From positions 1 to 41,723 of the forward strand of contig JAUYAG010000186.1 of the NCBI GenBank assembly GCA_030693575.1: a stretch of DNA of 41,723 bases. The letters are read 5' to 3'. Numbering within the stretch: position 1 is the first letter of the stretch; the number at the start of each line of letters is the position of its first letter. The notes below the pieces were generated by a model. That model did not search any database. It was not told where the DNA came from and saw only the letters and a program-made list of their open reading frames with translations. This DNA is from Brevundimonas sp. Lineage in GTDB: Bacteria; Pseudomonadota; Alphaproteobacteria; Caulobacterales; Caulobacteraceae. A program made the translations under genes and the position numbers. Shown here piece by piece: positions 7,291 to 22,650 of the stretch.

Positions 7291-7665
7291 GCCGGCGCGT
7301 CGAGCGGACCATCCGTCAGATCCTGGCGCTTGCCGCGGTCTCACCCGGCTCAGCGCAGATCGTCAAAATGGCACCGAGGGCCGGCAGGGGGGCTATGACA
7401 CCTAGTCTCCCACGCTGGAGCCCGTCCGATCTGGGCAAGCCCCCTGTCATATTGCCTACGCTGACGACCGGCTTTTGGGCGGGATCGAAGAGGCGATGCA
7501 CCCGGCTCGAACCCGGCACCGGCTCCGAGCGTTCGGTGTCAGGGTACGGTCAGCTTCCAGGTCCAGACTTCCGCTTGAAGGAGCTCTCTATGTCAGCGGC
7601 CCCTCCCCGATCAGAACCATCAAGACCCGGGACCTGATCAGACCCTCGATGACGTAATTCGGGCC

Positions 7666-8133
7666 CTACTCGCTCAGGCCGATGGAGATGCGCATTTCGC
7701 GCAGGCGATCTGCAATGGCGCCGTCGTCGACGGCGGATCGACCCTGGGTCTGGGTCACGAGTTGCAAGGCACGGATATGAACCCGCAGCGCTTCACCATG
7801 CCATACCCCGAGGGTAAGGAGCCCGTCGACTATGTTGGCGATCCCGCGGGTGATCTCGCCAACGGCACCGAGTTTCGCGGCGGCGGCGACTTCGGCGACC
7901 TGCACCGCCGCGTCGGCGAGTGTCCGGCATTCGGCGAACAACCTGTCGTCACTGTGATCGGCGTACGGCAATATCAGTTGCACCTTGGCGGCGACGAACG
8001 TCTGTATCTGGTCGGTGAGCGCCTCGACGCGCTTCTCGGCCTCCGCCACCAGCTCGCCGGTCGTTGATCCCCCAAGCGAGTCGAGAATTTTGCCCAGACG
8101 ATTTTCTGGCGTGAAGATGCGGACGTCGCTCAT
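7666..8133 (-). CDS. Small helical protein, possibly CheE-like chemotaxis accessory protein
   Basis: 155 aa, predicted mostly helical; N-terminal 'PENRLGKILDSLGG' resembles the PNRL-x-KM motif recalled from alphaproteobacterial CheE-type proteins; sits beside a receiver gene. Confidence 0.55.
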   Translation of the reverse strand: MSDVRIFTPENRLGKILDSLGGSTTGELVAEAEKRVEALTDQIQTFVAAKVQLILPYADHSDDRLFAECRTLADAAVQVAEVAAAAKLGAVGEITRGIANIVDGLLTLGVWHGEALRVHIRALQLVTQTQGRSAVDDGAIADRLREMRISIGLSE

Positions 8134-8141
8134 CTTCGATC

Positions 8142-8627
8142 CTATCCAAACAGGGAGCTGACTTCATCTTGGGACATGACCCGGGTCGGGTCTGCAACGA
8201 GCGCTGCGGCAGAGGCCCTGCGCTCTTCGGCGTCTTCAGCGCGAGCCACAGTCTTGAACCGACGATCAGGTCCACAATAGCCGCTTGAACCGATGAAGTC
8301 GCGGTTGTTGCGGGCAATCCATTCGATGCGGCTCAGCAAGATCGTCGGAGCAATGGGCTTCTTGACGACCATGTTGGCACCCGCGTCGCGGGCCTTCGCG
8401 ACCATGTATTTGGTCGTCGAGCCGTTGAGCATGACAATCGGAGCGGTGTGGTTCGGCTGCTTTGTTTCTGAGCGGATATGTTCAACGAGTGACGGCCCGT
8501 CCTCGCCGGGCATCTCAAAATCGATCAGGATAAGGTCAAACCGATCTGTAGCGACCAGGGTGCGCGCCTCTTCAGCCGACCTGCACCCCTTGAGCGCTCG
8601 AACCGGTCGAGGCCGTGACGGCGGCAA
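8142..8627 (-). CDS. Single-domain response regulator, apparently N-terminally truncated
   Basis: Phospho-acceptor strand LILIDFEMPGEDGPSLVEHIR, VMLNGSTTK, KKPIAP; C-terminal IEWIARNNRDFIGSSGYCGPDRRF. The beta1 strand and acidic pair are missing; aa 1-11 are antisense to the CheA 5' end. Confidence 0.7.
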   Translation of the reverse strand: MPPSRPRPVRALKGCRSAEEARTLVATDRFDLILIDFEMPGEDGPSLVEHIRSETKQPNHTAPIVMLNGSTTKYMVAKARDAGANMVVKKPIAPTILLSRIEWIARNNRDFIGSSGYCGPDRRFKTVARAEDAEERRASAAALVADPTRVMSQDEVSSLFG

Positions 8628-11146
8628 TCGACACGCGCGCGCTGATCGAGCAGCTGGGCGGAGACGCGACCCTCGACGCCGCGGCGGAAGCCGTGCTGGG
8701 GCGGCTCCGGACCGAGGGCGATCTCGGAGCCCTGATCCACGGCGCGGATCAGGATCGCCTGCAGGCCGCGGTGCGGGACAGTCTGAGTGGTCTGGCCCGG
8801 AAGGCGACGGCGGGCGACGCCTTCAGCCGCGCCCTGTCGGACCTTGCGGGCCAACCGCTCACGGCCACGATGACCCAGGCTGCCTTCGAGACTGTCGCCG
8901 GTGCCTTGCGCGAGCTGGATGTGGAGAGCGCCGCCATTGACCGCCTGGGCGCGCTGATCCTGGCTGTGCCCCAACCGGAACCTGTCGCCCAAGCGGCCGA
9001 GACGCCTGCGGCGGAGGTGCGGGCGCCGGTCGCGCGACCGGCGCCGCCGGCGACCTCCGCCGCGCGGACCGAGGTCGAAGCGTCCGCGACCGGACAGACC
9101 ATCCGGGTCAGCGTCGATGCCCTTGAGCATCTGATGACCGTGGTCAGCGAACTCGTTCTGATCCGCAACCAGCTGATCCAGACCCTGCGTCTGGAGCCCG
9201 AAAGCCCCTTCGCCGCCCCCCTGAACCGGCTCAATCAGGTGACCAGCGAGCTGCAGGAAGGCGTGATGACCACGCGGATGCAGCCCATCAGCGGGGCCTG
9301 GGCCAAGCTGCCGCGTCTGGTGCGCGATCTGGCGCAGGACCTGGGCAAGAGTATTGAACTGGTGATGCTGGGCCAGGACACCGAGCTCGACCGCCAGGTG
9401 CTGGAGCTGATCAAGGATCCGCTGACCCACATGATCCGCAACGCTGCGGATCATGGCCTTGAGGCTCCCGAGGAACGCCGGGCCGCCGGCAAGGTCGAAA
9501 CCGGCCGCATCACCCTGCAGGCCCGCCACGAGGGCGGGGCGATCGTCATCGAGGTTTCGGATGACGGACGGGGCCTGCCGGCTGACAGGCTGCGGGCCAA
9601 GGCCCTGGCCTCGGGAATCGTCAGCCCGGCACAAGCCGAGCAGATGACCGACGTCGAGGCACGACAGCTGATCTTTCTTCCCGGTCTCTCGACCGCCTCC
9701 GAGGTCACCTCGGTCTCGGGGCGAGGCGTCGGCATGGACGTCGTCCGGACCAATATCGAGAAGATCGGCGGGGCCATCGAACTGGCCTCGGTCGAGGGCG
9801 GCGGCACCTGTTTCACCATCCGCATCCCCCTGACCCTGACCATCGTCTCGGCCTTGATCGTCGAGTGCTGCGGCGAGCGGTTCGCCATGCCGCAGTCCAG
9901 CCTGGTCGAACTGGTCAGCGCCAGCGACGGGTCCGGACGGACCATCGAATACATCGACGGGGTGGCGGTGCTGCGCCTGCGTGACCGACTGTTGCCACTG
10001 ATTTCGCTCCAGACCCTGCTCCAGCTGGAACCGGTCGGGGATCCGCCGCCGGAGACCTGCATCATCGTGGCGCGGGTCGGTGCCTTCACCTTTGGCGTCA
10101 TCGTCGACCGGGTGTTCGACACCGAGGAGATCGTGGTCAAGCCGGTCGCCTCCGTGCTGCGCCACCTCAAACTCTATTCGGGGGCCACCATCCTCGGCGA
10201 CGGATCGGTCATCCTGATCCTCGATCTCAAGGGGGTTTCGGTCGAGAGCGGTGCCGGCCAGGTCGCCGGCAGCTCCCAGGAGGAGGTCGATGCTACGGCC
10301 AAGGCGGAGACCTTGTCCGCGATCCTCGTGTTCCGCGCCGCCAACGACAGTCTGAAGGCGGCGCCCCTCGCCAATGTTGCTCGCATTGAGGAACTCTCGG
10401 CCGAACAGATCGAGTGGATCGACGGCCGGTCCGTGATCCAGTACCGCGGCAAGTTGATGCCCATCATCGGTTCGGACGCCGGTCCCGCGACGGGGTGGGA
10501 GGGTGGCGAGCGCAGGCCGCTTCTGGTGTTCGCCCGCGACGACCGCACCGTCGGCCTGCTGGTCAATGAGATTGTCGATATCGTCGAGAGCGCCGTGACC
10601 ACCGACATGCCTGGTGCTGGCGCCGGGGCCTTGGGCGGACTCATCATCGGCGGCGTGGCCACCGAACTGATCGATGTGGGATACTACTGGCGTCAGGCCC
10701 TGCAGGAAGGCGAAGAGGTCGCCCCCGCAACCGCCGCGGCGTCACCGATCACGGCGTCCCCCGCCGGCGGCCGGGTTGTCGGCGCCGGTGCCGGCAACAG
10801 CCGACGCCTGCTGCTGGTGGATCAGAGTCCGTTCTCCCAGCTGCTGCTCCAGCCGCTGCTGGCCCAGGCCGGCTATGAGGTGACGGTGGCGGTCGACCCG
10901 GCCGCGGCCCTCAGCCTTTACGACGCGGGCGAGCATTTCCATCTGATCATGGCCGACACGTCCGACCCCGCCGAAGCGCGGGACTTCGCGGCCGCCTTCG
11001 GCCGCGCCGCGAGCTGGCACAAGACGCCGCTTCTGAGTCTCGCGGTCCATGGTGCGCCGGCCCAGGCCGCGAGCGGCGGACTCGACCGGAAGACCCTTCT
11101 GGATGCGGTCTCCGACGCCCTGGCCGAGATGGAGCAGGCGGCATGA
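8615..11146 (+). CDS. cheA: CheA-like histidine kinase without HPt: N-terminal globin-like domain, P3, HATPase, two CheW-like domains, C-terminal degenerate REC
   Basis: P4 motifs [45 protein letters not shown]; CheW-like regions; RLLLVDQSP...[12 protein letters not shown] start at 8615, frame open back to 8594. Confidence 0.9.
8642..8968 (+). other. Putative truncated-hemoglobin-like (non-heme) domain encoded at the CheA N-terminus
   Basis: [49 protein letters not shown]...[30 protein letters not shown] follows the spacing of the bacterial globin pattern LGG..al...v..fy.rv..d..L..ff.gvd..rl...q..fl...lt...F..v...l...L...gv....i..i. His/Tyr heme positions not conserved. Confidence 0.55.
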
Positions 11147-11625
11147 CGGTGCGAACGAAAAGCGTCCTGATCGCCACCGAGTCCACGGCGGGCCTGGTCT
11201 CGGTCAAGGTCGGCAGCCAGACCTTCGGCGTACCGGTCCTGTGCGTTCAGGACGTGATCGCGGAGACCGTGATCAACCGGGTGCCGCTGAGCCCGCCCGA
11301 GGTCGCCGGGTCGCTCAACCTGCGTGGGCGCATCGTCACGGCGATCGACATGCGTTGCCGCCTGCGGATGCCGGCACGGGCACCCGACGACCACTTCATG
11401 AATGTCATCGTCGAGCACAACGGCGAACTCTACGCCCTGCTGGTCGACGACGTCGGCGATGTCCTCTGGCTGGAGCCCTCGGAATACGAGACCGGCCCCG
11501 TCACCCTGTCGCCGCACTGGCGGTCGGTGTGCAGTGGACTCTACCGGTTGGACGACGAACTGCTTCTGGTTCTCAATATCGAGCAAGTTCTCACCCTGGC
11601 TGGAGCAGCAAGCCTGGCCGCCTGA
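11143..11625 (+). CDS. cheW: Chemotaxis coupling protein CheW
   Basis: CheW fold pattern: [21 protein letters not shown]...[28 protein letters not shown]...[13 protein letters not shown]; overlaps the cheA stop (ATGA). Confidence 0.92.
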
Positions 11626-11684
11626 TTCATCTAGTCACCAGCATCGCTCCCGACTTCTTCGTCGGGCATCACAAAGGACACGAC

Positions 11685-13658
11685 ATGCCGACCGCCGCCA
11701 ACACCGCCTTGAAGGTCGACGAGACCGAAGACTTTGAAGCGCTCCTGGAAGATTTCCGGGGTCAGATCGACGCCATTCGCAAGTCTCAGGCGGTCATCGA
11801 GTTCGGCCTCGACGGGATCATTCTGGACGCCAATGACAATTTCCTGAACACGCTGGGCTATACGCTCGGCGAGGTCCGGGGTCAGCATCACAGCATGTTT
11901 GTTGATCCGATGGAGCGGCAGTCGCTGGAATACAGGGGGTTCTGGGAGCGTCTGGGCCGGGGCGAATCCGACGCAGGCCAGTACAGGCGGATCGGCAAGG
12001 GCGGTCGCGAAGTCTGGATCCAGGCCAGCTACAATCCGGTCCTGGACGCCGGCGGCAGACCGACGAAGGTGGTGAAATACGCCACCGATATCACAGGCGC
12101 GATGAATGAGCGGCGGGAGGGCCTCAAGGTCCAGCGCGCCGTCGATAACCTGACCAGCGCCGTCATGATGGTGGATCGTGATCTGAACATTACCTACGTC
12201 AACGCCAGCACCACCAAGCTCCTGAAGGGGATCGCCCCGGCGATCCGGAGCCTCTGGGCTGATTTCGACCCGGACCGGATCATCGGCGTCAGCATCGACA
12301 AATTCCACAAGGATCCGTCCCATCAGCGCCGCCTGCTCGCTGACCCTTCCCGGATGCCCTACAAGACCGACATCACCATCGCCGACCTCAAGATTCACCT
12401 TTGCGTCAATGCCACCTTCAATGAGGCCGGCGAACACGTCGGCAACTCCCTGGAATGGGCCAACGTCACGGAGGTCCGGGCAGCCGAAGCCCTGAACACG
12501 GATCTGGCGAACCAGATGGCGGCGATCAGCAAGGCCCAGGCCGTGATCGAGTTCGGCCTGGACGGCAGGATCGTCACCGCCAACGCCAATTTCCTGAGCA
12601 CGCTCGGCTATTCACTCGAGGAAATCCGCGGGCAGCACCACAGCATGTTCCTGGCGCCGGAGGAGCGAAATACTCCTGAGTACCGCGCCTTCTGGGAAAA
12701 ACTGAATCGGGGCGAGCACGATTCCGCCCAGTACAAGCGGATCGCCAAGGACGGATCCGAGGTGTGGATCCAGGCCAGCTACAATCCGATCTGCGACGCC
12801 AGCGGCAAGCCGATGAAGGTGATGAAATACGCATCCGACATCACCGCCCAGCGCAAGGTGGCCGAGCGGGTCAAGGAGATCTCCAACATCGTCTCCTCGG
12901 CCTCGTCCGAAATGCGGGCGACCGCCGAGGCGATGGCGCGGACGGCGTCCGAGGCTACCGTCCAGGCCGGTGCCGTGGCCAATGCCGCCCAGGTCGCGTC
13001 CAGCAATGTGCAGACGGTGTCGGCGGCCGGGGAGGAGCTCTCGGCCTCCATCTCCGAGATCGCGCGGCAGGTGGCGGAATCCACCAATATCACCCAGCGG
13101 GCCGTGTCCGAGACCGACACGACCAAGGCCGCCATCCAGACCCTGGCCGTCGCGGCGCAGAAGATCGGCAATGTCGTCACCCTGATCAACAACATCGCCG
13201 GTCAGACCAAGCTGCTGGCCCTGAACGCCACGATCGAGGCGGCCCGGGCCGGAGACGCCGGCAAGGGCTTCGCGGTGGTGGCGTCCGAGGTGAAGAGCCT
13301 GAGCGACCAGACCGCCAAGGCCACGCACGAGATCTCTTCCGAGGTCTCGGCCATGCAGGCGGCGACCTCGACCTCGGTGTCGGCCATCCAGGGGATCGCC
13401 GACACCATCGGCAAGGTGGCCGAGATCGCGGCCGCCATCGCCAGCGCCGTGGAGGAGCAGTCCGCCGCCACCGGCGAGATCTCGGCCAATGTCACCGAGG
13501 CCGCGGCCAGCACCCAGGAGGTCTCGGCCAATATCCAGGGGCTCAACGAAGGGGTGGCCCAGACAGGGGCCGCCTCGGCCCAGCTGCTGCAGGCCTCGGG
13601 CGAGCTGGCCCACCAGGCCGAAGCGCTCAGCAACGAGATGGAGAGCTTGCTCGGCTAG
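11685..13658 (+). CDS. Soluble methyl-accepting chemotaxis protein with three PAS domains
   Basis: PAS repeats ([76 protein letters not shown]) plus a diverged middle PAS; MCP hairpin [47 protein letters not shown]; no TM segment. ATG at 11685. Confidence 0.93.
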
Positions 13659-13687
13659 GGGCGAGGTCCGGCTCAACGCCGCGACAG

Positions 13688-13717
13688 ACGGCCCCGTGGC
13701 TTGTCCCACGGGGCCGT
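13688..13717 (+). terminator. Rho-independent-like terminator downstream of MCP
   Basis: Perfect 12-bp inverted repeat ACGGCCCCGTGG-CTTGTC-CCACGGGGCCGT followed by TCTGCTT. Confidence 0.7.
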
Positions 13718-14003
13718 TCTGCTTCCGGAAGACGGTCAAACGGCCGGGGCCTCGCGCCAGTCGACAATCCGGTTGACGGGTTCTGAGGGCGAGCCCGACT
13801 GCCGGGCGCAAACTTCCTAATTCCATGGGCAAAATACCTCCCGTCCAAGCGATTGACCTGCGAGGGATGGTATTGAGCGACCAGGTTTCAGGGGGGGCGG
13901 GCGCGCCTGGATCGGGCTCCGATTCGCGTCGCAGAGGCCCATTTGCAGAGGTCGCAAATCGCTTCATCAGTCAGGGGAAAACCAGTCGTGGGCGGATGTC
14001 AGG

Positions 14004-16031
14004 ATGGATAGAGCCGAGTCTGAAGAACCGCTTCCTCACGCGAATTCTCCCGTGTCTGCAGGTGGGAGCGCGGGCGTTCCGGTCGGGCAGGAAGAACTCA
14101 TCTGGCGGCTGAATAAGGCCCAGACCCTGGCGCATATGGGCAGCTGGGAATGGAACATCCAGACCGACGCACTGTTCTGGTCCGATGAGATCTACAGCCT
14201 GTTCGGCCTGCCGATCGAGGGCTTCGAGGCCAGCTATCCCGCCTTTCTCGAACGGATCCACCCGGAGGACCGCGCGCTTGTGGAGGAGGCCGTCAGGCGG
14301 GCCGTCGAGGACGGCGCCGACTATGCGGTCGACCACCGGATTGTGAGGCCGGACGGCGAAGTCCGCTTTGTTCACGAGTCCGGCGAGGTCGATCGCGACC
14401 CGGCGGGCGTTCCGCTGCGCATGCGGGGCATTGTCCAGGACATCACCCGGCAGAGGGCCGTCGAGCGATCCGCCAAACGCAGTCGGGACATGCTCTCGGG
14501 GATGTTGAGGATCTCGCCCGAAGCCATCATCGTGGCCAACGGTGAGGGACGGGTCGTCGTCTTCAGCGCGGGGGCCGAGGTCGTGTTCGGCTATGCCGCT
14601 CACGAGGTCGTCGGGGAGTCTGTCGAACGTCTCATGCCCGAGCGTTTTCGCGCCAACCACGGGCAACACGTCGCGCGGTTTGCCGCGGGACCGAACGACA
14701 GCCTGCAGATGGCCCAACGCACCCCTGTCCGGGGCCTGAGGAAGGACGGCCAGGAAATTCCGGTCGAGGCCTCGCTGGCCCGTATCGTGGCCGGTGGGGA
14801 GGTCCTCTTCACGATCATCGTGCGGGATCTGACCCAGCGATACGAAACGGAAGCCCTTCTGGTCGAGGCCAAGGAACATGCCGAACAGGCCAGCCGGGCC
14901 AAGTCGGTCTTTCTAGCCAATATGAGCCACGAACTCCGGACGCCGCTCAACGGTATTCTCGGCGTGGCTGAGGCCCTGGCCAGGTCGGCCACCGATCCCG
15001 CGCAGAAGGAGATGGTGGATCTTATCGTGACCTCGGCGGGTGCCCTTGAAGCCCTGCTGACGGATATTCTCGATCTCGCCCGGATCGAGGCGGGGCGCAT
15101 GGTTGTCGAGACCGAGCCCTTTGATCTTATCGCCAAGGTCAAAAATGTCGCGGCCCTCTTCGGGGCGAGTGCGGAGAGCAAGGGCTTGTCGTTCACCCTG
15201 GACCTGCCGGAGACCGCGTCGCTGGTCCTCGCGGGCGACCGCAAGCGCCTGCGGCAGATCCTCAACAATCTGCTCAGCAACGCGATCAAATTCACCGAGA
15301 CCGGCGGCGTAAGACTGGCCGTGGAGACGGAGTGCAGCAGCGGCGCCTGCCGGGTCCGGATCTCCGTCCAGGACAGCGGCATCGGCTTTGACGAAGAGAC
15401 CCGGTTGCGGCTGTTTCAGCCCTTCGTACAATCGGACAGTTCAATCACCCGTCGCTTTGGCGGCACCGGCCTGGGTCTGTCGATCTGCCGGAACCTGGCC
15501 GAACTCATGGGCGGGACGATCGAGGCCCGGTCGGTCCCTGGCCGAGGCTCAACCTTCACCTTCGAGGTCACGCTGGCGCAGGCCACGCTCGAGCCGGTCG
15601 AGGAGGCCGCGCCGGCCGCGTGGACCGCGCAGCCGCTTCGCGTCCTCCTGGCCGAGGATCATCCGGTGAACCGGCGCGTCGTGGAGCTCATCCTGGAGCC
15701 CATGGGGATCGAAGTCCGCTCGGTGGAGAACGGCGAACTGGCGGTCGCCGAGGCGTCGGCCGGATCGTTCGACCTTGTCCTGATGGACATGCAGATGCCC
15801 GTGATGGACGGCCTGGAAGCGGTCCGGCGGATCCGGGGCAGGGAACGTGAATGCGGCCTGCCGCCCGTGCCAATCTGCATGCTCACCGCCAACGCGCTGC
15901 CCCATTTCCAGACCGTGGCCCTCGAAGCCGGCGCTGACGGATTCCTGACCAAGCCCATCAGCGCCAAGGTGCTGATCCAGAAGATCGCTCACCTCACCTC
16001 GCCCGCCGACGTCCAGACTGCGGCCATGTGA
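14004..16031 (+). CDS. PAS-PAS hybrid sensor histidine kinase/response regulator
   Basis: PAS (MGSWEWNIQTDALFWSDEIYSLFGL; SPEAIIVANGEGRVVVFSAGAEVVFGY), HisKA SVFLANMSHELRTPLNGILG, HATPase GGTGLGLSICRNLAELMGG, REC VLLAEDHPVNRRV...LVLMDMQMPVMDG. Confidence 0.93.
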   Translation: MDRAESEEPLPHANSPVSAGGSAGVPVGQEELIWRLNKAQTLAHMGSWEWNIQTDALFWSDEIYSLFGLPIEGFEASYPAFLERIHPEDRALVEEAVRRAVEDGADYAVDHRIVRPDGEVRFVHESGEVDRDPAGVPLRMRGIVQDITRQRAVERSAKRSRDMLSGMLRISPEAIIVANGEGRVVVFSAGAEVVFGYAAHEVVGESVERLMPERFRANHGQHVARFAAGPNDSLQMAQRTPVRGLRKDGQEIPVEASLARIVAGGEVLFTIIVRDLTQRYETEALLVEAKEHAEQASRAKSVFLANMSHELRTPLNGILGVAEALARSATDPAQKEMVDLIVTSAGALEALLTDILDLARIEAGRMVVETEPFDLIAKVKNVAALFGASAESKGLSFTLDLPETASLVLAGDRKRLRQILNNLLSNAIKFTETGGVRLAVETECSSGACRVRISVQDSGIGFDEETRLRLFQPFVQSDSSITRRFGGTGLGLSICRNLAELMGGTIEARSVPGRGSTFTFEVTLAQATLEPVEEAAPAAWTAQPLRVLLAEDHPVNRRVVELILEPMGIEVRSVENGELAVAEASAGSFDLVLMDMQMPVMDGLEAVRRIRGRERECGLPPVPICMLTANALPHFQTVALEAGADGFLTKPISAKVLIQKIAHLTSPADVQTAAM

Positions 16032-16069
16032 CCGTCCAGGCGATCCGCCGCCAGTGTCTGGATCGCCCG

Positions 16070-16092
16070 GGCCCGTGGCTTGTCCACGGGCC
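16070..16092. terminator. Hairpin terminator between convergent hybrid kinase and cheR
   Basis: Perfect 9-bp inverted repeat GGCCCGTGG-CTTGT-CCACGGGCC. Confidence 0.6.
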
Positions 16093-16135
16093 GGTTCTGC
16101 GTCGGTGAGACGGCGGTCGTCGGTCCGGCCTGGCC

Positions 16136-16969
16136 TCAGGCGGAGCGCGCCAGCGGCGGCGCCGACCGGCGATACAGGCCGCGCATCCCGACGGCAGGTT
16201 CGATGGTCTGGCTCAGCCCCATGACGGTCTCGGCGCTGCCCAGGAACAGCGAACCGTCGAGGGCCATGGCCTGACTGAGTTGTTCGAGGATCTGGCGTTT
16301 GTGGTCGACGTCGAAATAGATCAGCACATTGCGACAGAAGATCACGTCCAGAACCCCCATCCCGGCGGTTCCCTTCAACAGGTTATGCGGCCGGAACCGC
16401 ACCATCTGCTGCAGCACCGGCGACACCTGCCAGGCGTCGCCGTGCGGCTTGAACCAGCGCGCCAGACGTTCGGGCGACAGACCGCGCCGGACCTCGAAAT
16501 CATTGTAGACGCCAGCCCGCGCCTTCTGCAGCACCGGCTCCGACATGTCGGTGGCGATGATCTCGATCCGCCAGCCCGCCAGCCTCGCCCCCATCTCCTG
16601 CAGGATCATGGCGATCGAATAGGGCTCCTGGCCGCTGGAGCAGGCGGCGCACCATATCCGCAGGCTGCGCGTGGCCTGTCGCGCCGCGATCAGTGACGGC
16701 AGAACCTCCGTGGCCAGCTGTTCGAACGGCGCGCCGTCGCGGAAGAAATAGGACTCATGGGTCGCCATGGCGTCGATGCAGCGCTGCACCAGGGCCTCCG
16801 GGGCACCGGCTCTCAGTCGGGCCAGCAGTTCGGGGACGCCCGCCAGTTTCTCGGCCCGCGCCACCGGCTCCAGCCGACCGGAGACCAGATAGGACTTGGC
16901 CGGCGTCAGGACGAGGCCTGACCGCTCCCGTGCAAGGCGGCAGAAATGATCATAGTCCGGACCGGTCAT
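16136..16969 (-). CDS. cheR: Chemotaxis protein methyltransferase CheR
   Basis: THESYFFRDGAPFEQL, RIWCAACSSGQEPYSIAMIL, IIATDMSEPVLQKARAGVYNDFEVRRGL, DVIFCRNVLIYFD. ATG at 16969. Confidence 0.95.
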   Translation of the reverse strand: MTGPDYDHFCRLARERSGLVLTPAKSYLVSGRLEPVARAEKLAGVPELLARLRAGAPEALVQRCIDAMATHESYFFRDGAPFEQLATEVLPSLIAARQATRSLRIWCAACSSGQEPYSIAMILQEMGARLAGWRIEIIATDMSEPVLQKARAGVYNDFEVRRGLSPERLARWFKPHGDAWQVSPVLQQMVRFRPHNLLKGTAGMGVLDVIFCRNVLIYFDVDHKRQILEQLSQAMALDGSLFLGSAETVMGLSQTIEPAVGMRGLYRRSAPPLARSA

Positions 16970-18063
16970 GCGGTGGCTCCAGTAGCGCGTCGGAGCCAGG
17001 GTCCGATCTCGTTCAAGGGAAGAATGCTTTCGGCGAGTCCGGTCGCGGCGGCGGCCCCGGGCATGCCCCATACGACGCTGGAGGCCTCGTCCTGGACGAT
17101 GAACCGGCCGCCGGCCCGGGCCACCGCCTCGCAGCCCTTGGCCCCGTCGGATCCCATGCCGGTCAGCACGGTGGCCAGCAGGCCGGTCCCGAACACATGG
17201 GCGGCGGTGCGCAGCATCGGATCGACGGCCGGGCGGCAGAAACTCTCGGGCGGCTCCTGGTTGAGCCGCAGCACCGGCAGCGCCCCCTGACGGTCGACCA
17301 CCATATGCCAGCCGCCGGGGGCGACATAGCAGCGCCCGCCCAGAATGGGCTCGCCGTCCTTCGCCTCGGCGCACGGCCGGTCGCCGGCACGGGTCAGCTG
17401 TTCGGCCAGCAGGGCGGTGAAGGTCGCGGGCATGTGCTGGGTCAGCAGGATCGGCTGGGATACCGCGCCGCGGAGGGATTCGAACAGGGTCAGCAGCGCC
17501 GGGGGGCCGCCGGTCGAGGCGCCGATGGCGAGGACCGTCGTCTTGCCCCGGACCGGGCGCGGGGGCGTCGCTGCCGACGGCGGCGAGACGGGCTGGGCCG
17601 GGGCTACGGGCCTCGACGCCGCCGCCCGGCCACGGCCGAACGCCTTGATCTTGGAGATCAGTTCCCGCTTGAATTCCTCGGCCCCGGCCAGGCCGCCTTC
17701 CGGCTTGGCGACATAGTCCGACGCCCCCAGATTCAGGGCCTTGAAGCTGATCTCGGCATTCCGGCGGGTCAGGGTCGAGGCCATGATCACGCGTACCCCG
17801 GGATGCCGGATCATGATCTCTTTCAGCGCGGTCAAACCGTCCATGACCGGCATCTCGATATCCAGCACGACGATGTCGATCTCGTTCCTCGCCAGCTGGG
17901 CCAGGGCCAGCTCGCCGTGGGCGGCCGTGGCGACCACGGTGATTTCGGGATCGGTTTCGAGCTGCCGCGAGATCAGACCCCGTACGACGGCGGAATCGTC
18001 GACCACCAGAACCCGGATCGGGGCAGGCTCCAGACGGGCGGCGGACGCGGTGATCATCGGCAC
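16966..18063 (-). CDS. cheB: Protein-glutamate methylesterase CheB
   Basis: REC VLVVDDSAVVRGLISRQL...IVVLDIEMPVMDG plus methylesterase IGASTGGPPALLTLFESL, LLTQHMP, VLTGMGSDGAKG. 4-nt overlap with cheR. Confidence 0.96.
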   Translation of the reverse strand: MPMITASAARLEPAPIRVLVVDDSAVVRGLISRQLETDPEITVVATAAHGELALAQLARNEIDIVVLDIEMPVMDGLTALKEIMIRHPGVRVIMASTLTRRNAEISFKALNLGASDYVAKPEGGLAGAEEFKRELISKIKAFGRGRAAASRPVAPAQPVSPPSAATPPRPVRGKTTVLAIGASTGGPPALLTLFESLRGAVSQPILLTQHMPATFTALLAEQLTRAGDRPCAEAKDGEPILGGRCYVAPGGWHMVVDRQGALPVLRLNQEPPESFCRPAVDPMLRTAAHVFGTGLLATVLTGMGSDGAKGCEAVARAGGRFIVQDEASSVVWGMPGAAAATGLAESILPLNEIGPWLRRATGATA

Positions 18064-18322
18064 AGAAATCTCTCATGGTCGGGTGTGGTCGCTGCACGGC
18101 GACCGGAGTCCGCGCGTTCGCGCCGAATCCGGTCAGGGAATTACAGCGGCCAGTCGTCGAGCGAGGGTTATCTGTTCATGGCTCCATTAAGATCGAGCAA
18201 ACAGCTTTCATGACGACAAGTCGTCGCACCGCGAAGCTTCAACCTACACGGACGCGAACAAATTATACCTCACGTATCGTCGAATATACTTCGAGGGCGT
18301 GTCCGGCGGCACCACCCTCGAG

Positions 18323-18348
18323 CGAGCGACTTGCCTCTTTGTCGCTCG
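18323..18348. promoter_or_regulatory. Perfect inverted repeat upstream of the fixL-like gene
   Basis: CGAGCGAC-TTGCCTCTTT-GTCGCTCG, about 50 bp before ATG 18399. Confidence 0.4.
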
Positions 18349-18398
18349 ATGAATTACCGTGTTTTTTGGGTAGGAATCAAATAGCTGTGCCGGGGACC

Positions 18399-19865
18399 AT
18401 GACTGCGATGACGGGCTGGCGTTGGCCTGCCTTGGTCCGACGGGACGGTCTCGCCTATCTGGCGGCGCTGGTCGCGCTGATCGCCTGTCTGGCCGCGCGG
18501 GCGGCCGCCGCGCCCCTGCTCGGGGACCGCAGCGGCCTCTGGCTGCTGGTGCCGGCGGTGTTCGTGGGGGCGACCCTGGGCGGGCTCGGCCCCGTCCTGC
18601 TCGTCCTCGTCCTCGGCACCTTGGCGACCGAGGCCATTGCGGGGGCGGCGGTCTTCACCCTCCCGGCCAACATTCTGGCGGTCGCGATATTCCTGGTGTT
18701 CGGCGTCGCCAGCGGACTCGCCGGCGATGGCCTGCGACAGTGGCGCCGCGAGCGGCGCGAAGCGGCCGAGGACATGCGGGCCCTTCTGGACGCCATGCCG
18801 GACGCCATGTTCGTCTTCGACGCGCAGGGCCGGCTGCATTCATTCAGTGCGTCGGCGGTCGCCCTGTTCGGTTGGTCCGAGCAGGAGATCACGGGACGCC
18901 CGGTGTGGGGTCTTTTTCCCGCGACCGCCCGCGACGAGATCCAGACCTGCATGAGGGCCGTCGAAGCTGACGGCGCGGAAGGGTGCTTCGGCGGCCTTCG
19001 CCAGTTGCAGGGGCAGCGGCGCGACGGGAGCCGCTTTCCGATGGAGCTTGCTGTGTCCCGGAGGGGCACGGCCAGTGAGCGGCTGTTCACCGGATTCGCG
19101 CGCGACCTGACCGAACGATTCGAGGAACAGCGAAGATTCCAGGCGCTTGAGGCCGACCTGATGCATCTGGCCCGGCTCAACGCCATGGGCCAGATGGCCA
19201 CGACCCTGGCCCATGAACTGAACCAGCCGCTGGCGGCCGCGACCAATTTCATGGCCGCATCGGAGCGGCTGCTGGACCAACCCTCTCCCGACCTCCCCGT
19301 GGTCACTGACGCCCTTCGCAGCTCCGTCAAGCAGATGAGGCGAGCGGGCGACATTATCCAGCAGATGCGGTCCTTCATCGCCAAACGAGAACCCGCCCGG
19401 ATCCGGGAAGACCTCGCCGAGGTGGTCATTGAAGCGGTCTCCCTGGCCATGGTCGGCGCCGATGGCATCTCCCTGAGCTACGATATCAAGCCGGACCTGG
19501 AGCCTGTTGTCATTGACCGGGTCCAGATCCAGCAGGTGGTGGTGAACCTCGTTCGCAACGCCCGGGAAGCGATGGTCGGGATCGAATGTCCGGCGCTCTC
19601 GATCGGCGTCCGCCGCGTCGGAAACCTGATGGTGGTGTCGGTCGCCGACACCGGCCCGGGGGTCGCGCCGGATATGGTCCCGCGCATCCTGGAGGCCTTC
19701 GTCACCAGCAAGCCCGACGGGTTGGGTGTCGGTCTGTCGATCTCGCGCGGCATCGTCGAATCCCACGGCGGAACCCTCTGGCTGGAGCCGGCAGGCGGGC
19801 CGGGCGCGGTCTTCAGCTTCACAGTGTCGGCGGTCGCCGCGGAGACTTCTGTTGATGCCTCCTGA
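18399..19865 (+). CDS. FixL-like membrane PAS sensor histidine kinase (likely non-heme PAS)
   Basis: Several N-terminal TM segments, PAS LFGWSEQEITGRPVWGLFP...GQRRDGSRFPMELAV...FTGFARDLTERFE, HisKA HLARLNAMGQMATTLAHELNQPLAAATNFM, HATPase. ATG 18399. Confidence 0.9.
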   Translation: MTAMTGWRWPALVRRDGLAYLAALVALIACLAARAAAAPLLGDRSGLWLLVPAVFVGATLGGLGPVLLVLVLGTLATEAIAGAAVFTLPANILAVAIFLVFGVASGLAGDGLRQWRRERREAAEDMRALLDAMPDAMFVFDAQGRLHSFSASAVALFGWSEQEITGRPVWGLFPATARDEIQTCMRAVEADGAEGCFGGLRQLQGQRRDGSRFPMELAVSRRGTASERLFTGFARDLTERFEEQRRFQALEADLMHLARLNAMGQMATTLAHELNQPLAAATNFMAASERLLDQPSPDLPVVTDALRSSVKQMRRAGDIIQQMRSFIAKREPARIREDLAEVVIEAVSLAMVGADGISLSYDIKPDLEPVVIDRVQIQQVVVNLVRNAREAMVGIECPALSIGVRRVGNLMVVSVADTGPGVAPDMVPRILEAFVTSKPDGLGVGLSISRGIVESHGGTLWLEPAGGPGAVFSFTVSAVAAETSVDAS

Positions 19866-20463
19866 GCCTGTGGTTCACGTCATCGACGACGACGAGGCGG
19901 TGCGCCAGTCGTTGGCCCTGCTGCTCACCAGCGCCGGGCTCCGGGCGCAGACCTATGACGGCCCCCGCGACTTTCTGGCGGCCCTGCCGGCCATGGCCCC
20001 GGGCTGCATTATCACCGACATGCGGATGCCGGGCATGAGCGGGCTGGAGCTCATGGTTCATCTCGGGACCCTGGGCAGCACCCGGCCGGTCATCCTGATC
20101 ACGGGTCACGCCGACGTGGCCCTGGCGGTCGAGGCCATGAAGCGGGGGGCGGTGGATTTCCTTGAGAAGCCGTTCGATGACGCCGCCCTGATCGCTGCCG
20201 TCCGCAAGGCCGTTCACGTCGGACCGGTCGATGTCGCGCAGGACGCCGACGCGAGGACGGCCAGGGCGGCCGTCTCGACGCTTTCGGCGCGCGAGAAGGA
20301 TGTTGTTCGCGGGCTTGTGGACGGCAAGACCAACAAGATGATCGCGCGCGATCTCGGCATCAGCGCCCGCACGGTCGAGGAATATCGCGCCACGGCCAAA
20401 AGCAAGCTGGGCGTCCGCACGCTTCCGGCCCTTGTGCGGATCGCCCTGCGGGCAGGCTTCTGA
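19855..20463 (+). CDS. FixJ-like response regulator (REC + LuxR-type HTH)
   Basis: VVHVIDDDEAVRQSLALLL...CIITDMRMPGMSGLEL...VDFLEKPFDD; HTH LSAREKDVVRGLVDGKTNKMIARDLGISARTVEEYRA. Overlaps the kinase stop by 11 nt. Confidence 0.94.
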   Translation: MPPEPVVHVIDDDEAVRQSLALLLTSAGLRAQTYDGPRDFLAALPAMAPGCIITDMRMPGMSGLELMVHLGTLGSTRPVILITGHADVALAVEAMKRGAVDFLEKPFDDAALIAAVRKAVHVGPVDVAQDADARTARAAVSTLSAREKDVVRGLVDGKTNKMIARDLGISARTVEEYRATAKSKLGVRTLPALVRIALRAGF

Positions 20464-20493
20464 ACCTGGCGTCGCCATTCATGGATGTGGAGC

Positions 20494-20519
20494 CCACCCC
20501 GGTATCCACCGGGGGGTGG
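20494..20519 (+). terminator. Probable hairpin terminator after fixJ-like gene
   Basis: CCACCCCGGT-ATCC-ACCGGGGGGTGG imperfect inverted repeat (2-nt bulge), no strong T tract. Confidence 0.4.
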
Positions 20520-20582
20520 CGGGATTCACGAATCGCCTAAGACACAAAGTCGTAATTCCCTCAGTAAGTGGAGTGGCTTGCG

Positions 20583-20906
20583 ATGTCCTACAGCGTGCCT
20601 ACCGGCGGACAGATTCGGGCCGCGCGCGCGCTGTGCCGGGTCGAGCAGGCGGAACTCGCCCAGGCCGCGAATCTCAGTGTCCAGACCATCAAACGCCTCG
20701 AGAGCTTCCAGGGGCCGGTGGACGCGACCACCCGCACTGTCAGCGCCCTGACGACGGCCTTCCATGCGTTTGGCGTCGTCTTCGACCTCGACGTCGGCGC
20801 GGGGCCGGGCCTGAGGCTCCTGGACCATCGGCTCGGTCGAGTGGATGAACCGGACTCCGGGAGAAGCCACCGTGGGCGGGGCGCTGACAGGTCACGCGAC
20901 TCATAG
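20583..20906 (+). CDS. Small XRE-family HTH transcriptional regulator
   Basis: GQIRAARALCRVEQAELAQAANLSVQTIKRLES helix-turn-helix; ATG 20583. Confidence 0.75.
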   Translation: MSYSVPTGGQIRAARALCRVEQAELAQAANLSVQTIKRLESFQGPVDATTRTVSALTTAFHAFGVVFDLDVGAGPGLRLLDHRLGRVDEPDSGRSHRGRGADRSRDS

Positions 20907-20924
20907 TCGAAGGTCGCCCCGCCC
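20874..20924. terminator. Long-loop GC-rich inverted repeat at end of the XRE gene / before phoH end
   Basis: Perfect 10-bp arms GGGCGGGGCG (20874-20883) and CGCCCCGCCC (20915-20924). Confidence 0.35.
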
Positions 20925-20993
20925 TGCCTCAGGTCAGGCAAACGCAGCCGCCCACGCAGAGGCCGTCCAGCGGAGACGAATGCGCGCTTGCGG

Positions 20994-21992
20994 CTATGCG
21001 GCGGCGCGGAGTTCGGGATCGTCCTCGCTTGAGTAGATCGCTTCGATCTTGGCGACAGTGGCGTTTCGGATGATCTGGTGGTTCTGGAACTGGTGAACCA
21101 GTGCAATGTCGGTCCCGGCGATGTGCTTGAGGATGTGGGGAAGGCCTGATGGTTCGTCCCCGCTCAGGGCGACCTGGGCAGGATCGCCGGTTACGACCAT
21201 GCGTGAGCCCCGCCCCAGCCGCGTCAGGGCCATGCGCATCATCTTCTTGCCCATGTTCTGCGCCTCATCGACGAGGATGAAACACTCGTTGAAGCTGCGT
21301 CCTCGCATCCGACCGAGCGGGGTTATTTCGAGAAGGCCGTGCTCGATCAGACGCTTGGTTTCATCCCGACCGATCAGTTCCCGAAGTTCATCTTCAATCG
21401 GCGTGAGTTGCTCGTCGTAGACGGTTTCCGCACGCAGGGCCGCCGTCATGATATCGCCCTCCAGCATGCCCCGCGGGCGGGTGACGACCATGCTCTTGAA
21501 ATGCTTGTCGGCAATCAGATTAAGGCCGGCGGCAATGGCCAGATGAGTTTTCCCCGTGCCGGTGGGGCCGATCCCGAAGATCAGGGGCCGGTCAGAAAAC
21601 AGCATCGCATTCATGAACGCGACCTGGCTGAGGGACATCGGGCGCACAGCCGAATGGATGCCGTTCAGGCGGAAGGCCAGTTCGTGTTTGAGCGCGTCCT
21701 GTACTGCGGAGACGGCCACCGAATTGACCATTGGCTCATTGATGGCATGGCCGGCCTTTGTTGCCTCTGTAATCCGCCGCATCATTTCGGCGACAAGCGA
21801 TACAGCGATCTCGTCACCAGTCAGGCGTACGCCGCCTGGCACAGGCGAGATGGCAACGCGAAACGGCTTTACAGCGCGTTGGATGTTGTGTCCGGCGGCG
21901 TCGGTACCGGCAAACAGGATTTGGGCGCTCTGGGCGGCCAACTCGATATCCTGCGTGACCGTCCCCTGGTTTGAGCACGGAACCGAATTCAC
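20994..21992 (-). CDS. PhoH-family ATPase
   Basis: GIGPTGTGKTHLAIAAGLNLI Walker A, VVTRPRG, ECFILVDEAQNMGKKMMRMALTRLGRGSRMVVTGDPAQVAL. Confidence 0.93.
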   Translation of the reverse strand: MNSVPCSNQGTVTQDIELAAQSAQILFAGTDAAGHNIQRAVKPFRVAISPVPGGVRLTGDEIAVSLVAEMMRRITEATKAGHAINEPMVNSVAVSAVQDALKHELAFRLNGIHSAVRPMSLSQVAFMNAMLFSDRPLIFGIGPTGTGKTHLAIAAGLNLIADKHFKSMVVTRPRGMLEGDIMTAALRAETVYDEQLTPIEDELRELIGRDETKRLIEHGLLEITPLGRMRGRSFNECFILVDEAQNMGKKMMRMALTRLGRGSRMVVTGDPAQVALSGDEPSGLPHILKHIAGTDIALVHQFQNHQIIRNATVAKIEAIYSSEDDPELRAAA

Positions 21993-22522
21993 CGCGAAAC
22001 TCCATCAAGGCGGGACCGGGTTTCCTTGGCGCAAGAACGCAGTCTCGCGTCGCTCCCCCGGAACTGCCGACAAGCTTTGCAGGAAAGGCTTCAACAGAGA
22101 TTTAACCGGGAATTTCAGGCTAGGACGACGCCTCTGGCTCCGGGGGCCTCCAGAGAAGGGGGGGTGGATACAGTGCGGATAGCGCCGGCCCGCAGCCTGA
22201 AGCATCCGTTTGTCAGCGGAACAGCGGCATGTATCAGACGGGCAGGTCCGCTTTGGGTCGGGATCGGCCAGAGGCATCGGACCGAGAAGCGCACCTTCCC
22301 AGGCTCAGGCGGCATGGCTGAATGTCGTGTTTCCGGCGCTCGGCAAATGACCGCTTCTGTCGCCAAGCGGACGATGCGAGTGCTCCCGCAACGCCAAGGT
22401 GGGGTCCACGGCGAAATTGCGCTCGGTTTCCCAAATCTCCAGGGAGAAGTTGGGACTGTGGCCGGTGCAGTCGCAGCTTCATCACCCCGAAAAGGGTGTA
22501 CGGCTTCCTGCGAGCTGCGTGA

Positions 22523-22573: not shown

Positions 22574-22650
22574 TGGCGCGCCCGGAACGATTCGAACGTC
22601 CGACCCTCAGATTCGTAGTCTGATGCTCTATCCAGCTGAGCTACGGGCGC
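22574..22650 (-). tRNA. tRNA-Arg (anticodon ACG), CCA encoded
   Basis: Reverse complement GCGCCCGTAGCTCAGCTGGATAGAGCATCAGACTACGAATCTGAGGGTCGGACGTTCGAATCGTTCCGGGCGCGCCA folds as a cloverleaf; anticodon loop CTACGAA. Confidence 0.96.

Follow-up and report, generated by a model that had tools for sequence, protein, structure and literature searches.

A chemotaxis kinase gene in the window (the whole stretch of 41,723 nucleotides analysed here, which lies on contig C34 of a 2.78-Mb draft assembly of 211 contigs) raised the question of whether a CheA can dispense with its HPt domain and begin with a globin instead. The earlier note had read the ORF at 8615-11146 (+ strand) in this way, as P3, HATPase and CheW regions with no HPt, preceded by a globin that serves as the N-terminal input instead of the HPt, phosphate being passed on in trans or not at all. 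The coordinates and domain content of that reading were borne out. In this ORF of 843 aa, which opens on a GTG, the P3 dimerisation domain (H-kinase_dim; 9095-9271, +; residues 161-219, 8e-12), the P4 domain (HATPase_c; 9416-9835, +; residues 268-407, 6e-19) and the P5 CheW-like domain (Pfam CheW; 9851-10237, +; residues 413-541, 2e-28) follow one another in CheA order, all above Pfam cut-offs. A second, weaker CheW-like stretch was also matched, and the scan with the HPt model, which the note had proposed as a check, found no HPt in the ORF. The layout is thus a degenerate truncated-globin domain, P3, P4, P5/CheW-like and a weak C-terminal receiver-like segment, and no stop codon or other sign of further decay is evident in what remains of the gene. 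The receiver-like segment (10811-10960) is degenerate in the window CheA (Pfam 0.16) and intact in two other CheAs (L041, L048). The P3 of this ORF is the only CheA-type P3 found in the assembly, which contains no other CheA.

The nearest relatives of the window CheA are from Brevundimonas, and its close orthologs are about 150 residues longer at the N-terminus, where they carry a canonical HPt (IFRLIHTIKGTCGFLGL), a linker, the same globin-like segment and then P3. A normal HPt lies about 100 residues upstream of the globin-like domain in the three closest orthologs and in every examined ortholog with a complete 5' end, and an HxxKG-type motif is present in all of the latter. The HPts of L002 and L117 exceed the Pfam cut-off, and that of L013 is intact with the motif HMLKG. 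The earlier note had suggested an ortholog survey and had allowed that an upstream HPt, removed here by mutation or assembly error, would count against its reading; such an HPt is what we found, and the order HPt, globin, P3 overturns the proposal that the globin stands in place of the HPt.

Alignment to the orthologs placed a junction, marking a deletion or a misassembly, at 8600-8630, where about 1.57-1.61 kb is missing from the window. The three closest orthologs (G021/L117, G157/L118 and G152/L119) align on both sides of this junction and are 1.57-1.61 kb longer between the two sides; the ancestral state of the locus is taken from these relatives, at ~76-78% DNA identity. In the orthologs, the opposite strand upstream of cheA carries cheY, a CheZ-like gene, a receiver gene and a conserved gene of unknown function, and the stretch lost from the window comprises the N-terminus of the receiver gene, the CheZ-like gene, cheY, the promoter region and the HPt. 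What is left of the receiver gene in the window (8142-8627, -), the homologous part of which ends at ~8600, lacks its first ~36-40 residues, including an acidic pair (VVDD/LVDD in orthologs). The two genes that flank the junction, receiver and cheA, are truncated at the same point, with cheA starting within ~30 bases of the receiver end. Upstream of GTG 8615 the CheA frame meets a stop codon (TGA, 8591-8593) that lies on the receiver-gene side of the junction, and GTG 8615 is a codon of the linker, not a native gene start. Neither the missing 1.6 kb nor a cheY ortholog was found elsewhere in the assembly. The short CheZ-like protein between cheY and the receiver gene (110-122 aa; L002:2483-2851, -; L117:5623-5955, +) gave a weak CheZ Pfam match, below the cut-off, in L002 and none in L117. 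The gene beside the receiver gene in the window (7666-8133, -) encodes a conserved protein of 155 aa and unknown function that matches no Pfam family and is kept in the orthologous clusters; in the clusters that we read, the neighbouring receiver gene carries a YxGPDRR motif.

Because the orthologs have the order HPt-globin-P3, and because one and the same gap takes out the HPt, the CheZ-like gene, cheY and the receiver N-terminus, the HPt-less CheA is, by comparison of the sequences, not a real architecture: the front end of the gene is missing here. A survey of CheA histidine kinases likewise puts HPt-less CheAs down to faulty sequencing or assembly, or to an HPt encoded by its own gene within the operon (Berry et al. 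2023, PMC10782961). We propose, with a probability of roughly 0.9, that the window gene is a broken globin-CheA, the 3' ~84% of a native HPt-globin-P3-P4-P5-(second CheW-like)-receiver-like cheA left by a single ~1.6 kb loss. One such event would have joined the interior of the receiver gene to the HPt-globin linker, with loss of the promoter region and the HPt along with cheY and the CheZ-like gene. The window product, if made at all, would lack the phospho-accepting His and would not be expected to transfer phosphate.

As to how the 1.6 kb disappeared, we put the chances at about even that the deletion is real and present in the strain or population, with loss of chemotaxis. The join is clean, without Ns, and the che region looks dispensable: the closest complete relative (G012, 90-94% DNA identity across both flanks) lacks, at this site, a 15.2-kb block (7314-22480) that holds the whole che/two-component cluster, and in that genome the HSP70-like gene is directly joined to tRNA-Arg, leaving an empty site. 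In the window the block ends just before the tRNA-Arg at 22574-22650 and has a G+C content slightly below that of its flanks (0.660 versus 0.688); the ORFs examined in it included no integrase, and no direct repeat of at least 10 bases was found flanking it. Against a real deletion, none of 131 congeneric genomes showed the same junction. A somewhat less probable account is that the junction is purely an artefact of assembly, so that the living strain has an intact HPt-globin-CheA from which 1.6 kb was dropped. The assembly is a draft in 211 pieces, the reading frames on either side of the junction show no further decay, and the genome retains flagellins and the remaining che genes, among them cheW (11143-11625, +; Pfam), a gene with MCP and PAS domains (ORF 11049-13658, +; Pfam; its true start lies further in, after cheW) and cheB (16966-18063, -). 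However, there are neither Ns nor a contig end at the junction, and no long repeat that would explain a misjoin; the matches found there were only short and partial.

A natural two-part CheA, in which an HPt-less globin-CheA works with a separate HPt protein, is very unlikely, even though bipartite CheAs exist, as parts of the same survey describe (PMC10782961), and a stand-alone HPt bearing the motif HTIRG is encoded on contig C73 of this genome and might act in trans. This lone HPt occurs in 31 of 31 genomes (the window's own and 30 relatives), in most of which nothing matched the globin segment; it shows no linkage to the che cluster, the split is seen in no relative, and cheY, the CheZ-like gene and the receiver N-terminus were lost at the same point as the HPt. 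No further HPt was found in the genome, and we rejected the C73 protein as a dedicated trans partner, since an HPt conserved in all 31 genomes searched is not special to this kinase. The broken globin-CheA that we prefer is mainly a warning that a deletion or an assembly gap can mimic a new architecture.

The domain that now stands at the N-terminus (~residues 7-120; 8633-8974, +) was the more durable part of the earlier note, which had called it degenerate and globin-like. Alone, the window segment has no Pfam hit, and a single-sequence search of the PDB returned nothing significant (cyanoglobin at E 0.5), which made a profile of the family necessary. One built from 17 Caulobacterales-type segments, all lacking the haem His, found truncated haemoglobins in the PDB at 6e-7; a wider profile reached 8e-17 to truncated haemoglobins but is less independent, as it includes His-bearing members. 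The comparison with Bac_globin (PF01152) that the note had suggested came out both ways: the window segment alone does not match, whereas homologous CheA segments do (9 of the 27 aligned). An AlphaFold2 model of residues 1-126 (pLDDT 93.7, pTM 0.86) has a 2-over-2 globin fold. In a Foldseek search of the PDB with this model, the first 33 matches were all haemoglobins, nearly all of them truncated, with TM scores mostly of 0.6-0.7 and probabilities of ~1.0, although E-values were modest (best only 0.03). Profile comparison and the predicted fold support the window domain as a truncated-globin homologue built into CheA that has lost its haem ligands. The note had also read the B-helix position as V-L and the proximal His position as Leu, and both readings are right: B9-B10 is V-L and F8 (residue 74) is Leu, so the window globin, with neither F8 His nor B10 Tyr/Phe, has no haem ligand. 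That the segment is instead a degraded HPt or a P2-type domain, as its lack of a Pfam hit and its location where P2 usually lies might suggest, is the least credible reading of all, given that profile, fold and fold search all indicate truncated haemoglobins, that homologous segments of other CheAs exceed the Bac_globin cut-off and that the orthologs have a separate intact HPt upstream.

We surveyed the family by profile search of a sample of 385 alphaproteobacterial genomes; apart from the window's own group, at least eight family-level groups of Alphaproteobacteria have the globin domain within CheA reading frames. The native order of domains is HPt-globin-P3-P4-P5, the globin lying between HPt and P3, where P2 is normally found, and in each of six proteins (L128, L131, L132, L041, L048 and L148) the Pfam cut-offs for Hpt, Bac_globin, H-kinase_dim, HATPase_c and CheW are all exceeded. 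Globin-free CheAs of the same class occur in Azospirillum, Telmatospirillum, Sneathiella and others. The F8 His is kept in 11 of 45 CheA globin segments, belonging to ten proteins, several of which also have B10 Tyr and CD Phe; it is accompanied by B10 Tyr/Phe in L128, L129, L131, L132 and L133, and is also present in L041, L048, L148, L037 and L027. The other 34 segments have lost it, including those of the window, all Caulobacterales and Dongia, along with others. One of the ten proteins, L133, has two haem-type globin domains (ORF residues 13-108 and 501-619), the second inside the CheW domain. In a Dongia MAG, the CheA is split into two ORFs (L032, 4322-4921 and 4925-6505), possibly by a frameshift or premature stop.

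A tree of the CheA core required five changes for globin presence and seven for the states haem, no haem and none, which indicates that the globin domain was lost or gained more than once. The tree gives no direction to these changes; from the nature of globins, we infer that the F8 His was repeatedly lost and not gained. In a tree of the globins themselves, CheA copies fall on one side of a branch from free-standing or otherwise fused globins (support 91, not starred), a result compatible with, but no proof of, a single origin of the CheA globins. Common to the CheA globins is a signature of two E-helix residues, Q50 and R54, and one B-helix residue, E25 (window numbering), that is absent or rarer in the seven free-standing truncated globins compared. 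Q50 and R54 persist in CheA globins after loss of the haem residues, and are kept in the window; a signature that outlasts the haem residues suggests that the domain retained a task independent of haem, probably that of touching the kinase or the HPt.

In intact relatives, MCP/CheW arrays would control P4, and P4 would phosphorylate the HPt, as in other CheAs. A globin between HPt and P3 could modulate the HPt-phosphorylation step or CheY docking. In Caulobacterales its most likely role would be that of a haem-free docking or allosteric module that shapes contact between HPt and P4 or with CheY, with the binding of haem and gas as a possible further function in the relatives that have the His. 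The CheAs L128, L129, L131, L132, L041, L048, L148, L037 and L027, with their F8 His, are candidate direct gas-sensing kinases. We tentatively suggest, at somewhat less than even odds, that alphaproteobacterial CheA senses O2, NO or CO through an internal truncated haemoglobin where the haem residues are kept, and that in several lineages, including that of the window, the domain was converted to a new use as a haem-free regulatory module of the kinase. The survey cited above describes CheA as a kinase that has no sensor domain itself and depends on receptors for its input (PMC10782961); if our suggestion is true, CheA itself may read gas or redox state, and the lineages that kept or lost the haem ligands would form a natural series that leads from a haem sensor to a module free of haem.

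Compared with known systems, the globin-CheAs share with other CheA histidine kinases (Berry et al. 2023, PMC10782961) the P3-P4-P5 core, an HPt in intact relatives, a C-terminal receiver-like segment and a location in a che cluster, and differ in the globin between HPt and P3. The auxiliary domains named in portions of that survey are P2, receiver and CheC/CheX, and the word 'globin' is absent from its main text (PMC10782961). Our search, which was thin on subscription journals, found no paper on globin-CheA, and an earlier mention is possible; the HPt-globin-CheA combination is probably already displayed in domain databases without comment. These bacterial chemotaxis kinases with a built-in truncated globin form a widespread and apparently undescribed family, some of whose members look capable of haem binding.

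The closest relatives of the domain itself are group 1 truncated haemoglobins (cyanoglobin GlbN, HbN and the trHbs of Chlamydomonas and Paramecium), which have the same fold, length, GG motif and helix pattern and, in common with some CheA globins, the B10 Tyr/Phe, CD Phe and F8 His. In contrast to these proteins, the CheA globin is fused inside a kinase and has its own E-helix Q/R signature, and the B10 and F8 residues are lost in the CheA globins of the window and of Caulobacterales. The N-terminal non-haem globin of the stressosome protein RsbR, to which the earlier note had compared the window domain, is described in parts of one source as a haem-free globin that acts as a signalling module (PMC6614362), and in this respect it resembles the Caulobacterales CheA globin. 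The likeness does not extend to sequence family, as none of 27 CheA globin members had a Pfam match to the RsbR N-terminal family; the kinase context differs as well, and the relatives of the CheA globin are the 2-over-2 truncated globins. HemAT and other globin-coupled sensors likewise tie a globin to chemotaxis signalling. In HemAT, however, a protoglobin-type globin forms the N-terminal part of a receptor or output protein, whereas in globin-CheAs, among which Protoglobin Pfam matches were weak and rare, the globin matches group 1 truncated haemoglobins and is internal to the kinase.
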